Positions 574 to 5,661 of a DNA stretch of 55,747 bases are shown here, one piece after another; within the stretch, counting starts at the first letter, position 1; the number at the start of each line of letters is the position of its first letter. Under the pieces are notes generated by a model. It saw only the letters and a list, made by a program, of their open reading frames with translations, ran no database searches and was not told the DNA's origin. Source of the DNA: Pelotomaculum isophthalicicum JI (lineage in GTDB: Bacteria > Bacillota > Desulfotomaculia > Desulfotomaculales > Pelotomaculaceae). The stretch spans positions 1 to 55,747 of the forward strand of contig NZ_JAKOAV010000024.1 in the NCBI RefSeq assembly GCF_029478095.1. Reading direction: 5' to 3'. A program made the position numbers and the translations under genes.

Positions 574-836
574 AAATTATTTTTTAGCAAGGTTTATTCT
601 AGCAGAAAAAAGATATGCCGTCAATATGCTGAAGGCAGTATAGTGATGTTCTTGTGGCATATATTACCGGATAGGCTGTTTCGAAATACTTAACTTGTTA
701 AAGGATTTAGTAGGTGTAATGTCGAAATGCATATTGATAAATTATCGGGTACGGGGATAGTAACCCCATCGAGCATTTTTTATGAATGTTCTGTTACCTT
801 TTATATAGGTGGCCCTTTCGCAAAGGAGGGGTGAAG

Positions 837-1439
837 ATGCAACCGGCTGATAACATTCTCGTTGAGAGAAGTAAAAACGGGGATATGGAAGCCTTTGAGC
901 AACTTGTCCGCCGTTATGAGAATAAAGTTTACACGGTGGCTTACCGTTTTCTAGGCAACCATGCTGACGCGTCCGACCTTGCTCAAGATGCTTTTTTAAG
1001 GCTCTACCATGCCTTGCCAAGTTTTCGAGGTGAATCCAGTTTCATGACCTGGCTTTACCGTATCACCGCTAATGCGTGTCGCGATGAAATACGCCGTAGG
1101 CAAAGATATCATTTTATGTCTCTGGACAATGAAATTGAAAATAACGGTGACCATATTATGTCACGGGTATCCGGTCTGACTCCCTCGCCTGAGGAAGAAT
1201 TTGAGCAAAAAGAGTTTAATGATATGATCCAGCAATGTATTAATAGTCTTACGCCGGAGCATCGTTTAATTTTAGTCATGAGAGAAATACAGGGCTTGTC
1301 ATATGATGAGATGGCTGATGTATTAAAATGCTCCCTAGGCACGGTTAAGTCCCGATTAAGCCGTGCCAGGCAAGCGTTTAAAGAAATTTTTAATGATCGG
1401 AGGGAACTTTGGAGCAAGGACTCACGTCTAGCTAAATGA
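837..1439 (+). CDS. ECF RNA polymerase sigma factor (SigW-like)
   Basis: A 200-aa sigma-70 family extracytoplasmic-function sigma factor. Region 2 spans roughly residues 20-90 (YENKVYTVAYRFLGNHADA, SDLAQDAFLRLY, then FMTWLYRITANACRDEIRRR) and region 4 roughly 130-185 (LTPEHRLILVMREIQGLSYD, MADVLKCSLGTVKSRLSRAR). The ATG at 837 is preceded directly by AAAGGAGGGG, so it is preferred over an in-frame start 51 bases upstream. It directs RNA polymerase to a small regulon, usually for envelope stress. The gene just downstream (13-bp gap) encodes a zinc-finger anti-sigma factor, giving the standard sigma/anti-sigma operon. The inducing signal cannot be read from sequence. Confidence 0.93.
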   Translation: MQPADNILVERSKNGDMEAFEQLVRRYENKVYTVAYRFLGNHADASDLAQDAFLRLYHALPSFRGESSFMTWLYRITANACRDEIRRRQRYHFMSLDNEIENNGDHIMSRVSGLTPSPEEEFEQKEFNDMIQQCINSLTPEHRLILVMREIQGLSYDEMADVLKCSLGTVKSRLSRARQAFKEIFNDRRELWSKDSRLAK

Positions 1440-1452
1440 GGGGGGATGAGAG

Positions 1453-2541
1453 GTGCAGTGCCTGGAAATTGAGGAACTGCTTTCACCTTATCTAGACGAA
1501 GTACTTGACCCATCGGAAAGTGAAGTTGTTGCCTCTCACCTGGCTGTATGCGCAAGTTGCCGGGAAAAGTATGATATTCTCAATGAAACTGTCAATTTCA
1601 TTAAAAACTTGCCGGAGATGGCGTCACCCCCTGAGTTCGGCACCCAGGTAATAAATGAGGTCTTAACATATCCAGCACGTGAAAAGACCGGTTTGGGCAG
1701 TGTTTTTAAGACCTTCAAAAAGAGTGGCTGGTTGCGTGCGTGCTCTTTTGCCGCCATGTTCGTGGTTATATTTAGTATAACCACGTTGATTTATGGGATG
1801 CCGCCGGGGCAATGGTACCAAAAAATATCTTCGTTGCTGGTTTACGAACAACGGAACGAGCCAAAACCAGACGCTGAAATAAAAAGTAATGAACGTGTAG
1901 ATATAAACGAAACTGACCCAAAAGAGGATGGCCCGGGGTATGAGGATAAACTTGATAATATTCCTGGCTTACCAGCCAACGATGGCAGTTCGCCAGCCGG
2001 AATACCCGTTGTCCCGCAAAAAATGGCTGAAAAAGAAGGGGCTATTATCACAGAAGTTGCTTATGGTTATATTCCGGCTTCCAATAAGGAACCGCATAAT
2101 TTGTTGCTTGATGCTACTCTTGCCCTGTCAACAGAGAATCCGTCTGTTGTGCCGGAAAAAATCGCCGACCTGGCTGATAAAAATGGGGGTTACTTGGCGC
2201 CGGGAAGTTCTGAAGAAGGAACGCTCACTGTAAAGGTGCCTGCAGACCGGTTTGATAATGTGTTAAGCAGCATCAGGGAGATGGGTAACACAGATACGAG
2301 ACGAATTGCTGGTGAAGATGTCAGTGAAAAAATATCAGGTTATGAGAATAATATAAGGTATTTAGCAAACGAAAAGCAAATGTCTCTAAAAGCGATTGAA
2401 AATGCCGGTTCATCTGCCGAAACGCAGGCGGCGCAAGCGCAGCTTGACAAGGTGCAAACAGATATGGAACAGCAGAAGAAGTTGTATAGTAAACTGTTAA
2501 ACGATACACATGTTGCGACTATAAAAGTAAACCTGCAGTGA
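1453..2541 (+). CDS. zinc-finger anti-sigma factor with DUF4349 domain
   Basis: A 362-aa, GTG-started membrane protein. The N-terminus is a zf-HC2 anti-sigma domain: a conserved Cys, then the H-x3-C-x2-C motif in HLAVCASCREKY (about residues 30-40). One transmembrane helix follows at about residues 95-117 (CSFAAMFVVIFSITTLIYGM), then an acidic, low-complexity linker to about 180. The extracytoplasmic part resembles DUF4349: LLLDATLALSTENPSVVPEK, KVPADRFDNVLSSIREMG, and a coiled-coil stretch rich in Gln/Ala near residues 305-345. Unlike many DUF4349 proteins it ends without a second membrane helix. It presumably holds the upstream ECF sigma factor inactive until an envelope signal acts on the outer domain. 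Domain calls are firm for the zinc finger and good for DUF4349. Confidence 0.85.
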   Translation: MQCLEIEELLSPYLDEVLDPSESEVVASHLAVCASCREKYDILNETVNFIKNLPEMASPPEFGTQVINEVLTYPAREKTGLGSVFKTFKKSGWLRACSFAAMFVVIFSITTLIYGMPPGQWYQKISSLLVYEQRNEPKPDAEIKSNERVDINETDPKEDGPGYEDKLDNIPGLPANDGSSPAGIPVVPQKMAEKEGAIITEVAYGYIPASNKEPHNLLLDATLALSTENPSVVPEKIADLADKNGGYLAPGSSEEGTLTVKVPADRFDNVLSSIREMGNTDTRRIAGEDVSEKISGYENNIRYLANEKQMSLKAIENAGSSAETQAAQAQLDKVQTDMEQQKKLYSKLLNDTHVATIKVNLQ

Positions 2542-2546
2542 ATTTT

Positions 2547-2579
2547 ACTGCCGCATTATTTAAAGGGCAGTATTTTTTC
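2547..2579 (+). terminator. Rho-independent terminator of sigma/anti-sigma operon
   Basis: ACTGCC (2547-2552) pairs with GGCAGT (2566-2571) across a 13-base loop and is followed by a T-rich run. It begins just after the stop codon at 2541. Confidence 0.6.
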
Positions 2580-2668
2580 TTGTCATTAACGGATATAATA
2601 GATAAAATAAATAGATGAGAAACATAGTTGTCCATAAATAAAATTTATACAAGAAGGGAGGTCGTGAA

Positions 2669-2890
2669 GTGAAGGAAAAAGTTCAGGAAGTAATCAATAA
2701 AGTACGGCCTTTTCTCCAAAGAGACGGGGGAGATGTTGAGCTTGTGGGAGTCGATCCCGACGGGTTGGTTAAAGTGCGGTTGAAGGGTGCTTGCGGCGGT
2801 TGACCGGGCGCCACAATAACCCTCAAGCAGGGTATTGAGCGGATGCTCAAGCAGGAGATTCCGGAAGTAAAAGAAGTTATATCTGTTTAA
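2669..2890 (+). CDS. NifU-like Fe-S scaffold protein, candidate selenoprotein (TGA at codon 45)
   Basis: The reading frame encodes 73 residues typical of the short NifU C-terminal-domain family: [59 protein letters not shown], then [14 protein letters not shown]. The family's CxxC cluster-binding motif appears as C42-G-G-TGA45-P: the in-frame TGA (2801-2803) sits exactly where the second Cys is expected, and homology resumes at once after it. The GTG at 2669 follows AAGAAGGGAGG. A bacterial SECIS-like hairpin lies downstream: CCCTCAA (2820-2826) pairs with TTGAG..GG (2835-2842, one bulge), with an 8-base loop starting with G about 23 nt after the TGA. Alternatively the TGA is a point nonsense mutation or a sequencing error; the intact downstream frame argues against long-standing decay. 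Confidence 0.75.
2820..2842 (+). promoter_or_regulatory. candidate bacterial SECIS hairpin in NifU-like gene
   Basis: CCCTCAA (2820-2826) pairs with TTGAG and GG (2835-2842, one bulged C). The loop is GCAGGGTA, whose first base is the G that bacterial SECIS loops usually carry. The distance from the TGA to the loop is about 23 nt, within the usual range. A competing hairpin, ACCCT/AGGGT (2819-2833), overlaps it. No fold energy was computed. Confidence 0.45.
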
Positions 2891-2895
2891 AAAGT

Positions 2896-2920
2896 ACCCT
2901 CTGCGAAGAGGGTCTTTAAT
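2896..2920 (+). terminator. terminator downstream of NifU-like gene
   Basis: A perfect 7-bp stem ACCCTCT/AGAGGGT (2896-2902 / 2907-2913) with a GCGA tetraloop is followed by CTTTAATT. It lies 5 bases past the TAA and is evidence that the gene on both sides of the TGA is one transcription unit. Confidence 0.7.
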
Positions 2921-2974
2921 TAACATGAAAGTTTCTTTTCCACGGCAAATGAATTAACGGATATGATGGTTTTG

Positions 2975-3535
2975 TTATAGAGGGAATCCTTGAACGTAAA
3001 TTCCATACCTTGCGTTGTTTTCTTTAAATTTATCGTAATCCATGAAGATGACCTCAAAAGTACCTGTTTCACCTGGGGCTAACTCTGTCGGTTCAAGGTT
3101 TGTGCTATATGTTCGTGTGAGTTCCTGGTTATCAGTGTTCAGCAGTTTGCCGTATACCGTCAATGTTGTTAACCTGCGATTGCCCGTATTAATCACTTCT
3201 CCTGATACGGTTAGTATCGTTATACCTTCTGTTATTTTATTAACCTTAATCGCGTAGTCGTCTGTTAGGTCAATACCCGTTTTTGGGTCTGGAACAGGCA
3301 GTGTTACTGAAGCGGTTTCGCTTTCAGGCGCCCATTCAAATGTGCCGCCCATGCTCCTGGCCAGCGTCTCAATTGGAACCATTACCTGACCGTCTACCAT
3401 AACTCCCGCGCCTTCAAGTTTTTGTCCGTTAATAATTAGGTTTATACCTTTTGTGTCGGCAAATACACCCGCTGTGCAAGCTAAACTTAATATAACACCA
3501 ATCAACAGCAATTTTATTAAGCGTTCTCCCATCAT
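2975..3535 (-). CDS. secreted stalk-domain (copper amine oxidase N-like) protein
   Basis: A 186-aa exported protein of unknown function. The signal peptide is at residues 1-26 (LIKLLLIGVILSLACTAGVF ending FADT). It is followed by a copper-amine-oxidase-N-like stalk domain (INLIINGQKLEGAGVMVDGQ, VMVPIETLARSMGGTFEW, residues ~30-85), which in Firmicutes is a cell-wall-associated module without oxidase activity. The second half looks like an FxLYD-type immunoglobulin fold (ITILTVSGEVINTGNR, TVYGKLLNTDNQEL, LAPGETGTFEVIF). The start is taken at the ATG pair following GGGGGATC; an in-frame ATG 12 bases upstream lacks a site. It is a single gene between convergent and divergent neighbours. Confidence 0.75.
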   Translation of the reverse strand: MMGERLIKLLLIGVILSLACTAGVFADTKGINLIINGQKLEGAGVMVDGQVMVPIETLARSMGGTFEWAPESETASVTLPVPDPKTGIDLTDDYAIKVNKITEGITILTVSGEVINTGNRRLTTLTVYGKLLNTDNQELTRTYSTNLEPTELAPGETGTFEVIFMDYDKFKENNARYGIYVQGFPL

Positions 3536-3638
3536 GATCCCCCGCATTTGGTATTATTCCCTCAAGAGTTGCAAATACAATATTTATAATATAAAAGACG
3601 AAAAAATACCTGTTAATGTTCCGTGTGTGCAACAATGA

Positions 3639-3668
3639 AAAGCGGACTCAATTCTTCGAGCCCGCTTT
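3639..3668 (-). terminator. terminator of acs
   Basis: AAAGCGGACTC (3639-3649) pairs with GAGCCCGCTTT (3658-3668), with one A/C mismatch and an 8-base loop; on the minus strand it is followed by TTTT. It lies 30 bases beyond the acs stop codon. Confidence 0.6.
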
Positions 3669-3699
3669 CAGAAGTCTTTAGTTTATCACTATTTAATGC

Positions 3700-5661
3700 T
3701 TACTGCCTGTTTGCCACCAGGTTGTCTACCACGGTGGAATCGGCCAGTGTCGAGGTGTCGCCGAGTTCGTCAACAGCGCCGGCGGCGATTTTCCTCAGGA
3801 TCCTTCTCATAATCTTACCGCTTCTGGTCTTAGGCATGCCAGGAGTGAATTGAATCTTGTCAGGCGAGGCAATCGGTCCAATTTCCTTACGCACGTGCGC
3901 TACAAGCTCTTTCTTAAGCTCGTCTGTGCCTTCCACGCCTTCTTTCAGCGTCACATAAGCGTAAATGCCTTCACCTTTAATGTCGTGCGGGAAACCAACA
4001 ACCGCAGCTTCCGCTACTGTCGCGTGCGCTACTAAAGCGCTTTCAACTTCCGCGGTGCCCATCCGGTGTCCGGAAACGTTGATAACATCGTCCACGCGGC
4101 CTAATAACCAGTAGTAACCGTCTTCATCTTTGCGCGCGCCGTCGCCGCTGAAATAATGGCCGGGCTGTTGTACGAAGTAAGTTTCTTTAAACCTGTTCGG
4201 ATCGCCATAAACGCCGCGCATAATGCCGGGCCAAGGCTTCTTCATGCAAAGGTGGCCGCCCTCGTTCACGCCGGCTTCTTTGCCTTCCGCCGTAAGCAGT
4301 ACGGGAACCACGCCAAAGAACGGATTTACGGCCGAACCGGGCTTCATCGGGTGGGCGCCCGGCATTGGGGCGATTAAGTGCCCGCCGGTCTCAGTCTGCC
4401 ACCATGTGTCAACAATCGGGCATTTTTCCTTGCCGATGACTGTATAGTACCACATCCAGGCTTCCGGGTTAATCGGCTCGCCGACCGAAGCCAGCAGGCG
4501 CAGGGAGCTGAGGTCTCTGCCTTTAGGCCACTGATCGCCGTCCTTCATCATGGCGCGGATGGCGGTGGGAGCTGTATATAAAATGTTTACTCCATATTTC
4601 TCTACAATTTGCCAGAACCGGTCCGGCGCGGGATAGTTCGGCACGCCTTCAAATATCAGGGAGGTCGCGCCTAATCCCAGCGGGCCGTATACACAATAGC
4701 TGTGCCCGGTTACCCAGCCGATATCAGCTGTGCAGAAATAAACGTCTTCATCGCGAATATCGAAGAAATACTTGACGGTCATCATGGCATAGAGGTGGTA
4801 TCCGGCAGTGGTATGCATGGCTCCTTTGGGTTTGCCGGTGCTGCCGCTTGTATATAGAATGAAAAGGGGATCTTCCGAATCCATTGCTTCCGGTTCGCAC
4901 TTGTTCGAAGCTGTCGCCATCAAATCGTCCCAGTATACGTCGCGTCCTTCCACCATGTTGCATTCCTTGTCCACTCTCTTGACCACGATGCATTTCTTGA
5001 TGTCAGGACATTGGGCCATGGCGGCGTCGGCCACGTCTTTGGAACCCAGGAATTTGCCGGAACGGTATCCAAAGTTATTGGTGATCAGTATTTCCGCTTT
5101 AGCGTCCAGCATCCTGTCGCGAATCGCTTCGGCGCTAAAACCGCCGAATACGATGCAGTGGATGGCACCGATCCTGGTGCAGGCCAGCATGGCGATAACC
5201 AGTTCAGGGATCATCGGCAGGTATATGCCAACCCGGTCTCCTCTTTTAACTCCCTGGCTCTTCAGGACGTTGGCGAATTTGCAAACTTCATTATGAAGCT
5301 GTTGGTAAGTGTAAGTCTTGCTATCCTCTAAGGGCTCGCCCTGCCAGATAATCGCGGCTTTGTTCTTCCGCGGGCCGTCCAGGTGGCGGTCCAGGCAGTT
5401 GTATGATACATTCAGCTTGCCGCCCGCGAAATAGCGAATGTAAATATCATCGGTAAAGCTGTATTCTTCAACTGTTTCCCACTTCTTGAACCAGGTCAGG
5501 TTTTCTTCGGCCATCTGTGCCCAAAACTCGTTCGGGTTTTCGACAGACCTTTTGTACATCTCCTTGTACTGTTCCAAACTGTTAACCCTGGCTTTTGCGA
5601 CAAACTCCGGGGATGGATTGAAAACCCTGTTTTCAACCATCATCGATTTCATTTCCGCCAT
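3700..5661 (-). CDS. acs: acetyl-CoA synthetase (AMP-forming)
   Basis: A 653-aa cytoplasmic enzyme that converts acetate, ATP and CoA to acetyl-CoA, AMP and PPi through acetyl-adenylate. The full family length is present. Visible motifs are the P-loop-like A3 motif YTSGSTGKPKGAMHTTAGY (about residue 268 on), the TWWQTETGG block, the YWLLGRVDDVINVSGHR hinge region, and the C-terminal PKTRSGKIMRRILRK, whose Lys (about 616) is the catalytic, acetylation-regulated lysine. ATG is preceded by GGAGGGG. It is monocistronic, with its own downstream terminator. In an anaerobe of this kind it probably serves acetate assimilation or, in reverse, energy metabolism; that role is inference. Confidence 0.96.
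   Translation of the reverse strand: MAEMKSMMVENRVFNPSPEFVAKARVNSLEQYKEMYKRSVENPNEFWAQMAEENLTWFKKWETVEEYSFTDDIYIRYFAGGKLNVSYNCLDRHLDGPRKNKAAIIWQGEPLEDSKTYTYQQLHNEVCKFANVLKSQGVKRGDRVGIYLPMIPELVIAMLACTRIGAIHCIVFGGFSAEAIRDRMLDAKAEILITNNFGYRSGKFLGSKDVADAAMAQCPDIKKCIVVKRVDKECNMVEGRDVYWDDLMATASNKCEPEAMDSEDPLFILYTSGSTGKPKGAMHTTAGYHLYAMMTVKYFFDIRDEDVYFCTADIGWVTGHSYCVYGPLGLGATSLIFEGVPNYPAPDRFWQIVEKYGVNILYTAPTAIRAMMKDGDQWPKGRDLSSLRLLASVGEPINPEAWMWYYTVIGKEKCPIVDTWWQTETGGHLIAPMPGAHPMKPGSAVNPFFGVVPVLLTAEGKEAGVNEGGHLCMKKPWPGIMRGVYGDPNRFKETYFVQQPGHYFSGDGARKDEDGYYWLLGRVDDVINVSGHRMGTAEVESALVAHATVAEAAVVGFPHDIKGEGIYAYVTLKEGVEGTDELKKELVAHVRKEIGPIASPDKIQFTPGMPKTRSGKIMRRILRKIAAGAVDELGDTSTLADSTVVDNLVANRQ

Follow-up and report, generated by a model that had tools for sequence, protein, structure and literature searches.

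An in-frame TGA in a short NifU-like (Nfu) gene of Pelotomaculum isophthalicicum JI almost certainly encodes selenocysteine (Sec): UGA codon 45 would be translated by the organism's own SelA, SelB, SelD and tRNA-Sec under the direction of a hairpin at 2835-2850 of the window, the window being the whole analysed stretch of 55,747 nucleotides. This Sec-Nfu is a real selenoprotein, of a family apparently unreported, and its Sec form is common in one order, that of the Desulfotomaculum-like bacteria. An earlier note, made from the sequence of the window, had considered the gene a likely selenoprotein gene; codon exchange among relatives, a hairpin invariant in 69 of 69 TGA genes, selection on the codons and the presence of the selenocysteine machinery all support this view. 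It is very likely that the product combines selenoprotein identity with an Nfu-type function, an assessment that applies to these two together and not to Fe-Se bonding alone.

Identity of the gene and its product

The features of the locus are as follows.

786-1439, plus strand: ECF sigma factor gene, upstream neighbour.
1453-2541, plus strand: gene of an anti-sigma-like protein, upstream neighbour.
2656..2661, plus strand: Shine-Dalgarno-like GGGAGG, 7 nt 5' of the GTG; putative ribosome site.
2669..2890, plus strand: Sec-containing Nfu gene with a GTG start, 73 residues and a TAA stop (2888-2890), from translation.
2792..2794, plus strand: TGC, first Cys of the CxxC/CxxU motif, from alignment.
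2801..2803, plus strand: in-frame TGA, residue 45, read as selenocysteine (TGA/TGC/TGT = 69/34/18 among 121 genes).
2820..2832, plus strand: short CCC...GGG pairing immediately 5' of the hairpin; candidate accessory part of the SECIS.
2835..2850, plus strand: bSECIS hairpin, stem 2835-2840/2845-2850, loop GGAT at 2841-2844; perfect in 69/69 TGA genes.
2896..2913, plus strand: terminator-like hairpin directly 3' of the distal stop, from a consensus scan; candidate.

The translated protein begins with VKEKVQ and ends with VISV. When the TGA is translated as a residue, the protein covers the Pfam PF01106 (NifU-like domain) profile over its full length (1-67 of 67; E 4.2e-30, 104.1 bits against a curated cut-off of 27); the earlier note had called the frame family-like on both sides of the TGA. 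Alignment with three structurally characterised Nfu proteins (2z51, 1xhj and 2jnv) confirmed the note's placement of the TGA at the second Cys of CxxC. The protein has no intact CxxC; it has a CxxU motif in which the first Cys is kept and the second is TGA/Sec, and because of this replacement it was filed as a Sec variant of the PF01106 family, not as a plain member. A scan of NCBIfam release 20.0 returned three NifU/NfuA models and one weak unrelated model, none of them above cut-off, and no selenoprotein model of that release matched the protein, TIGR01911 included. The finding would add a selenoprotein family whose genes would be expected to end at codon 44 in standard gene calling.

The ECF sigma and anti-sigma-like neighbourhood is common to TGA and Cys copies in relatives, and a nitrilase-like gene, recognised by the look of its sequence, is often located downstream of both. 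The surroundings of TGA and Cys copies are thus shared, and no firm functional lead was obtained from the gene neighbourhood. The consensus scan of positions 2500-3000 on both strands found four terminator-like sites, against 0.5 expected.

Distribution of the TGA codon

The search set comprised 100 genomes, the organism's own and 99 relatives, most of them from the same order. Nfu matches (122 in all) were present in 96 of these genomes, and 121 Nfu genes were re-extracted from them, one weak match (G017 C83, E 1.5e-7) being left out. Codon 45 is TGA in 69 genes, TGC in 34 and TGT in 18, while TGA occurs at no other codon in any of the 121, a pattern beyond chance; a check for TGA/TGC pairs in homologues, which the earlier note had recommended, thus found the exchange at exactly this codon. 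The 69 TGA genes are distributed over 67 genomes; 45 genomes have only the TGA type, 22 have both kinds and 29 only the Cys type, and 16 genomes have a TGA and a Cys copy on one strand less than 1 kb apart. None of the TGA genes contains an internal TAA or TAG, and their terminal stops are TAA (52), TAG (15) and TGA (2). The residue preceding the site is Gly in 69/69 U genes vs 32/52 Cys genes, and the residue following it is Ala in 18/69 vs 1/52. Two TGA Nfu genes adjoin each other in each of two genomes (L060 in G041 and L094 in G051).

A pattern search of contigs for TGA at codon 45 yielded 87 stretches, 80 of which were translated; 58 were Nfu genes (three of them judged by eye to be truncated Nfu) and 22 were unrelated. 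According to the record titles from this search, TGA Nfu genes occur in Desulforamulus, Desulfofundulus, Desulfoscipio, Desulfallas, Pelotomaculum, Desulforadius, Sporotomaculum and Syntrophaceticus, as well as in Syntrophomonadaceae, and among the named isolates that carry the gene are Desulforamulus putei, Desulforamulus aeronauticus and Desulfofundulus australicus. In the wider phylum the TGA form was found in at least 22 of 201 genomes with an Nfu match, namely the organism's own, 13 others of the order and 8 of a further family (f46).

The SECIS hairpin

Fig. 2 of a 2026 review gives the rules for bacterial SECIS elements as a loop of 3-9 nt with G in its first two positions, a stem of 4-16 bp, a distance of 16-37 nt from the UGA and an MFE <= -7.5 (PMC13188914). 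The hairpin of the window, TTGAGC-GGAT-GCTCAA, fits the rules as given in that figure, with a 4-nt loop starting with GG, a 6-bp stem and a spacing of 37 nt, the upper limit of the range, and it appears in some but not all predicted folds. The earlier note was right about a hairpin with a G-starting loop but not about its distance from the TGA, put there at about 23 nt; the stem begins 31 nt and the loop 37 nt after the TGA. The MFE of the 24-nt element is -7.5 in the window and -7.1 to -9.9 across the 69 genes, and that of offsets 3-54 is <= -7.5 in all 69.

The same element, TTGAGC-GGNN-GCTCAA, with its loop 37 nt after the TGA, occupies this fixed place in 69/69 TGA genes, the loop being GGTC in 37, GGGT in 23, GGAT in 5 and GGTT in 4. 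Another 17 TGA sequences from Bacillota, some of which are incomplete and were retrieved because of their TGA, have this hairpin too, giving a total of 86. Six Watson-Crick pairs at this place were found in only 3/52 Cys genes (G001, G046 and G081), and GG at the loop start in 14/52. Synonymous entropy at codons +6 and +11 to +15 is zero in TGA genes vs 0.87-2.22 bits in Cys genes, and when the 69 genes were recoded synonymously at random, 69 of 13800 draws contained the hairpin. A consensus fold computed for 62 distinct TGA stretches shows the hairpin and a two-pair helix, whereas that of the 52 Cys stretches is empty.

Taken alone, the hairpin of the window gene would be weak evidence, since 255 of 20000 random synonymous recodings of this gene contain it, the 61-nt fold of the window does not surpass those of shuffled sequences (z -1.25; 25 of 200 shuffles as good), and the hairpin appears in only some of the folds. 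When folding started at the TGA, it was predicted in 26 to 42 of the 69 TGA genes and in 2 to 6 of the 52 Cys genes, depending on the stretch; for the window gene, two of the five stretches tried gave it. Refolding without the first 12 nt, as if these were covered by the ribosome (a length of our own choosing), gave the hairpin in 69/69 TGA vs 5/52 Cys genes when the stretch extended to offset 54 and in 63/69 vs 3/52 when it extended to offset 60, the window being included both times. The bSECIS rule by itself is not specific, for hairpins of at least six pairs that fit it at any place, with G-U allowed, are also present in 10/52 Cys genes. No covariation was demonstrable among the TGA genes; the stem is invariant and only two loop bases vary, which makes this criterion unusable here. 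Single-sequence folding is a poor guide, though an improved one without those first 12 nt, and the case for the SECIS therefore rests on invariance across 69 genes, not on folding energy. The CCC...GGG element just upstream, a candidate accessory part, may form three G-C pairs in 67/69 TGA vs 12/52 Cys genes, and its ACC codon is present in 86/86 Bacillota TGA sequences.

Selenocysteine machinery

The genome encodes selA, selB, selC and selD, the four genes for which the earlier note had advised a search. The tRNA-Sec scored 66.7 bits, and ARAGORN concurs; SelA (602.8 bits) is encoded directly before SelB, SelD scored 405.2 bits and contains one TGA, and a second full-length SelB is located on contig C54. 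In-frame TGA codons were also observed in the organism's formate dehydrogenase-like gene (L224, on contig C3), which has a hairpin with a GGTCT loop, and in its selD (L217, on contig C51), where the hairpin is less clear.

Counted by eye, SelB is above cut-off in 66 of the 67 genomes with a TGA gene (the exception is G084), and a tRNA-Sec of at least 60 bits is present in 65 of them (exceptions G009 and G084). G009 has SelB and a weak tRNA-Sec match. G084, which is 84% complete, has the TGA gene but no SelB above cut-off and no strong tRNA-Sec; its Nfu sequence groups with that of another family, and the gene is possibly misbinned. SelB is nearly uniform in the search set (above cut-off in 97/100 genomes), so that the wider phylum, with SelB in 263/398 genomes, is the better test. 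There, SelB is above cut-off in 21 of the 22 listed TGA-form genomes, and the remaining one (G362, 84% complete) has a tRNA-Sec of 72.7 bits.

Selection and other readings of the TGA

Estimates of dN/dS, taken from gene pairs under a difference limit, were 0.064 for the 14 codons that precede the TGA and 0.150 for the 26 that follow it; without the hairpin codons the latter value was 0.096 vs 0.091 in Cys genes. The stretch 3' of the TGA is under purifying selection, like Cys genes, and the low dN/dS indicates that it is translated. Random disruption of the gene in close relatives, which the earlier note had regarded as an argument against a selenoprotein, was not seen.

These data bear on three other readings of the codon. 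UGA might terminate translation or act as a selenium-dependent switch, the functional product being a fragment of 44 residues. Readthrough of Sec UGA codons in bacteria is often incomplete, which counts for this reading; it is nevertheless very improbable given the selection on the downstream codons, the lack of TAA and TAG within the 69 genes and the position of the terminator-like site, which follows the distal stop. A pseudogene or a sequencing error, for which nothing speaks except the TGA itself, was rejected: the identical TGA recurs in 69 genes from 67 genomes and also in sequence records of named isolates, the frames are intact and dN/dS is near 0.1, which together refute this explanation for the family and leave it a negligible probability. 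Equally negligible is the decoding of UGA as Trp, Cys or Gly by a suppressor tRNA or under an altered genetic code. This reading was likewise rejected, as nothing in its favour was found, TGA is confined to codon 45 and always accompanied by the hairpin, and it also serves as the terminal stop in 2 of the 69 genes.

Possible function of the selenocysteine

Cys NFU proteins, as described in the available part of one paper, use CxxC to hold a cluster, [2Fe-2S] or [4Fe-4S], where the two monomers of the homodimer meet, and then transfer it (PMC7939391). Homology to these proteins is the basis for proposing selenium as a cluster ligand. Decoding of UGA as Sec would give a single-domain Nfu protein, and its homodimer would probably hold an Fe-S cluster between two CxxU motifs, with two Cys and two Sec as ligands, and hand it on. 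The selenolate would be expected to tune the stability, release or repair of the cluster. If so, Sec in a general Fe-S carrier would make selenium part of the route by which Fe-S clusters are supplied, and Fe-Se and Fe-S ligation could be compared directly in a protein of 73 residues that has natural Cys counterparts.

The main rival to cluster ligation is a redox role of the CxxU motif: the protein would still be a selenoprotein, but its Cys/Sec pair would form a redox couple or bind a metal, a metalloid or selenium. Plant NFU proteins are reportedly reduced by thioredoxin in vitro, to judge from the title of a paper (PMC6210436), and the residues around the site differ between U and Cys genes (the preceding Gly and the following Ala), both of which were counted for such a role. 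Moreover, the available text of the 2026 review considers most uncharacterised selenoproteins, many of them with UxxC or CxxU, as likely redox proteins, and stresses redox roles for selenocysteine (PMC13188914). Against this stand the retention of the whole Nfu domain, including the first Cys, and the 45 of 96 genomes in which only the Sec form was detected, a count that may be affected by incomplete assemblies or distant Nfu genes. Where it is the sole Nfu detected, the Sec form may have to take on the usual tasks of Nfu. On balance a redox or binding role of the Cys/Sec pair appears rather unlikely.

Relation to known proteins

Nfu and NifU C-terminal domain proteins (PF01106; e.g. chloroplast NifU-like protein 2, 2z51, and 1xhj) share the full-length domain and the CxxC place with the protein of the window, which differs from them by Sec in place of the second cluster Cys and by a SECIS located within its coding sequence. 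Discussions of selenocysteine mostly concern its role as a catalytic residue. The HesB-like family is likewise related to Fe-S assembly, through A-type carriers. A HesB-like selenoprotein (TIGR01911), with a Sec form according to the available part of the 2026 review (PMC13188914), belongs to a different family, its motif being UxGP and not CxxU. The same part of the review also lists HdrA (CxxU), an Fe-S oxidoreductase-like protein (UGH) and a 2Fe-2S CopZ-like protein with Sec at probable Fe-S or metal sites (PMC13188914); these are electron-transfer or ferredoxin-like proteins, in contrast to the Nfu cluster carrier described here.

Table 1 of this 2026 inventory, which comprises 119 prokaryotic selenoprotein families, contains no NifU, Nfu or PF01106 entry (PMC13188914), and a term search of the available text of PMC9312934, PMC1794560, PMC12013277 (including its Table 3) and PMC7435645 found no NifU. 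A literature search by titles and the beginnings of abstracts, with subscription papers, supplements and RefSeq annotation outside its scope, found no previous description of a NifU/Nfu with Sec, and earlier notice of Sec-Nfu is possible. No report of a selenolate-ligated cluster was found in the literature search.

Exchange of selenocysteine and cysteine

A gene tree was built from 149 rows and 72 columns, the shorter fragments and the genes of G517 and G492 being left out. This tree is poorly resolved; as drawn it contains 20 Sec/Cys changes, and strongly supported branches require 3 of them. Only one further genome of the genus, G001, was in the search; its syntenic Cys gene is flanked on either side by the same neighbour clusters and retains the hairpin of the window exactly. 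Among the four Cys genes fetched from family f46, L239 has six pairs of the hairpin and L238 has five. A Cys Nfu gene from family f51, outside the order (L241, in G208), has the complete TTGAGCGGGTGCTCAA hairpin where the SECIS would be. In these four Cys genes (G001, L239, L238 and L241) the hairpins look like remnants, or, for single genes, may be due to chance.

In Planctomycetota, 215 of 294 genomes have an Nfu match, and among the matches listed three have TGA at the second Cys (G484 = L193, G517 and G492). In total, the TGA form is present in at least four genomes (G483 = L166, G484, G517 and G492) with three sequence types. The metagenome-assembled L166 and L193 have the TGA at the same codon with other downstream sequence, and the two closest Cys relatives of L193 among the matches listed are 80% identical to it. 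In single-sequence folds, made without a shuffle control, the hairpin of G517 (8-bp stem, loop AGGAC) follows the TGA at 21 nt and that of G492 (10-bp stem, loop GGGCTTTA) at 23 nt; L166 and L193 have just a weak stem of 4-5 bp with the loop AGTT. SelB is above cut-off in G484 and G517, but not in G483 and G492, and tRNA-Sec is above cut-off in both genomes tested, G483 and G484. Since SelB was also above cut-off in 7 of 10 tested Cys relatives from Planctomycetota, it is by itself no marker of the TGA form. The unlike hairpins of the planctomycetal TGA forms point to independent origins, suggesting that the Sec form may have arisen repeatedly.

A joint reading of these observations would be that the Sec-Nfu protein is a cluster carrier with two Cys and two Sec ligands, that it evolved repeatedly and that Sec and Cys copies serve as a selenium/sulfur switch; in this combination it is plausible but still tentative. 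The Sec form would have originated in an ancestor within Bacillota, where many Sec/Cys exchanges followed, and in Planctomycetota it would have arisen independently, on up to three occasions and each time with a SECIS of its own. Adjoining Sec and Cys copies might then let the cell switch between the selenium and the sulfur form of the carrier.

A different arrangement was observed for a Cys Nfu paralogue of the organism itself (L041, contig C54, 1737-1958), which is located directly upstream of the second selB (2140-4059). The pair of Cys Nfu and selB is also present once in G015 and twice in G019, and in three of these four places it is adjoined by a VhuD/HdrA-like gene (CNWCCYGGAD) or a fragment of one, so that the arrangement is possibly a selenium-linked cassette.
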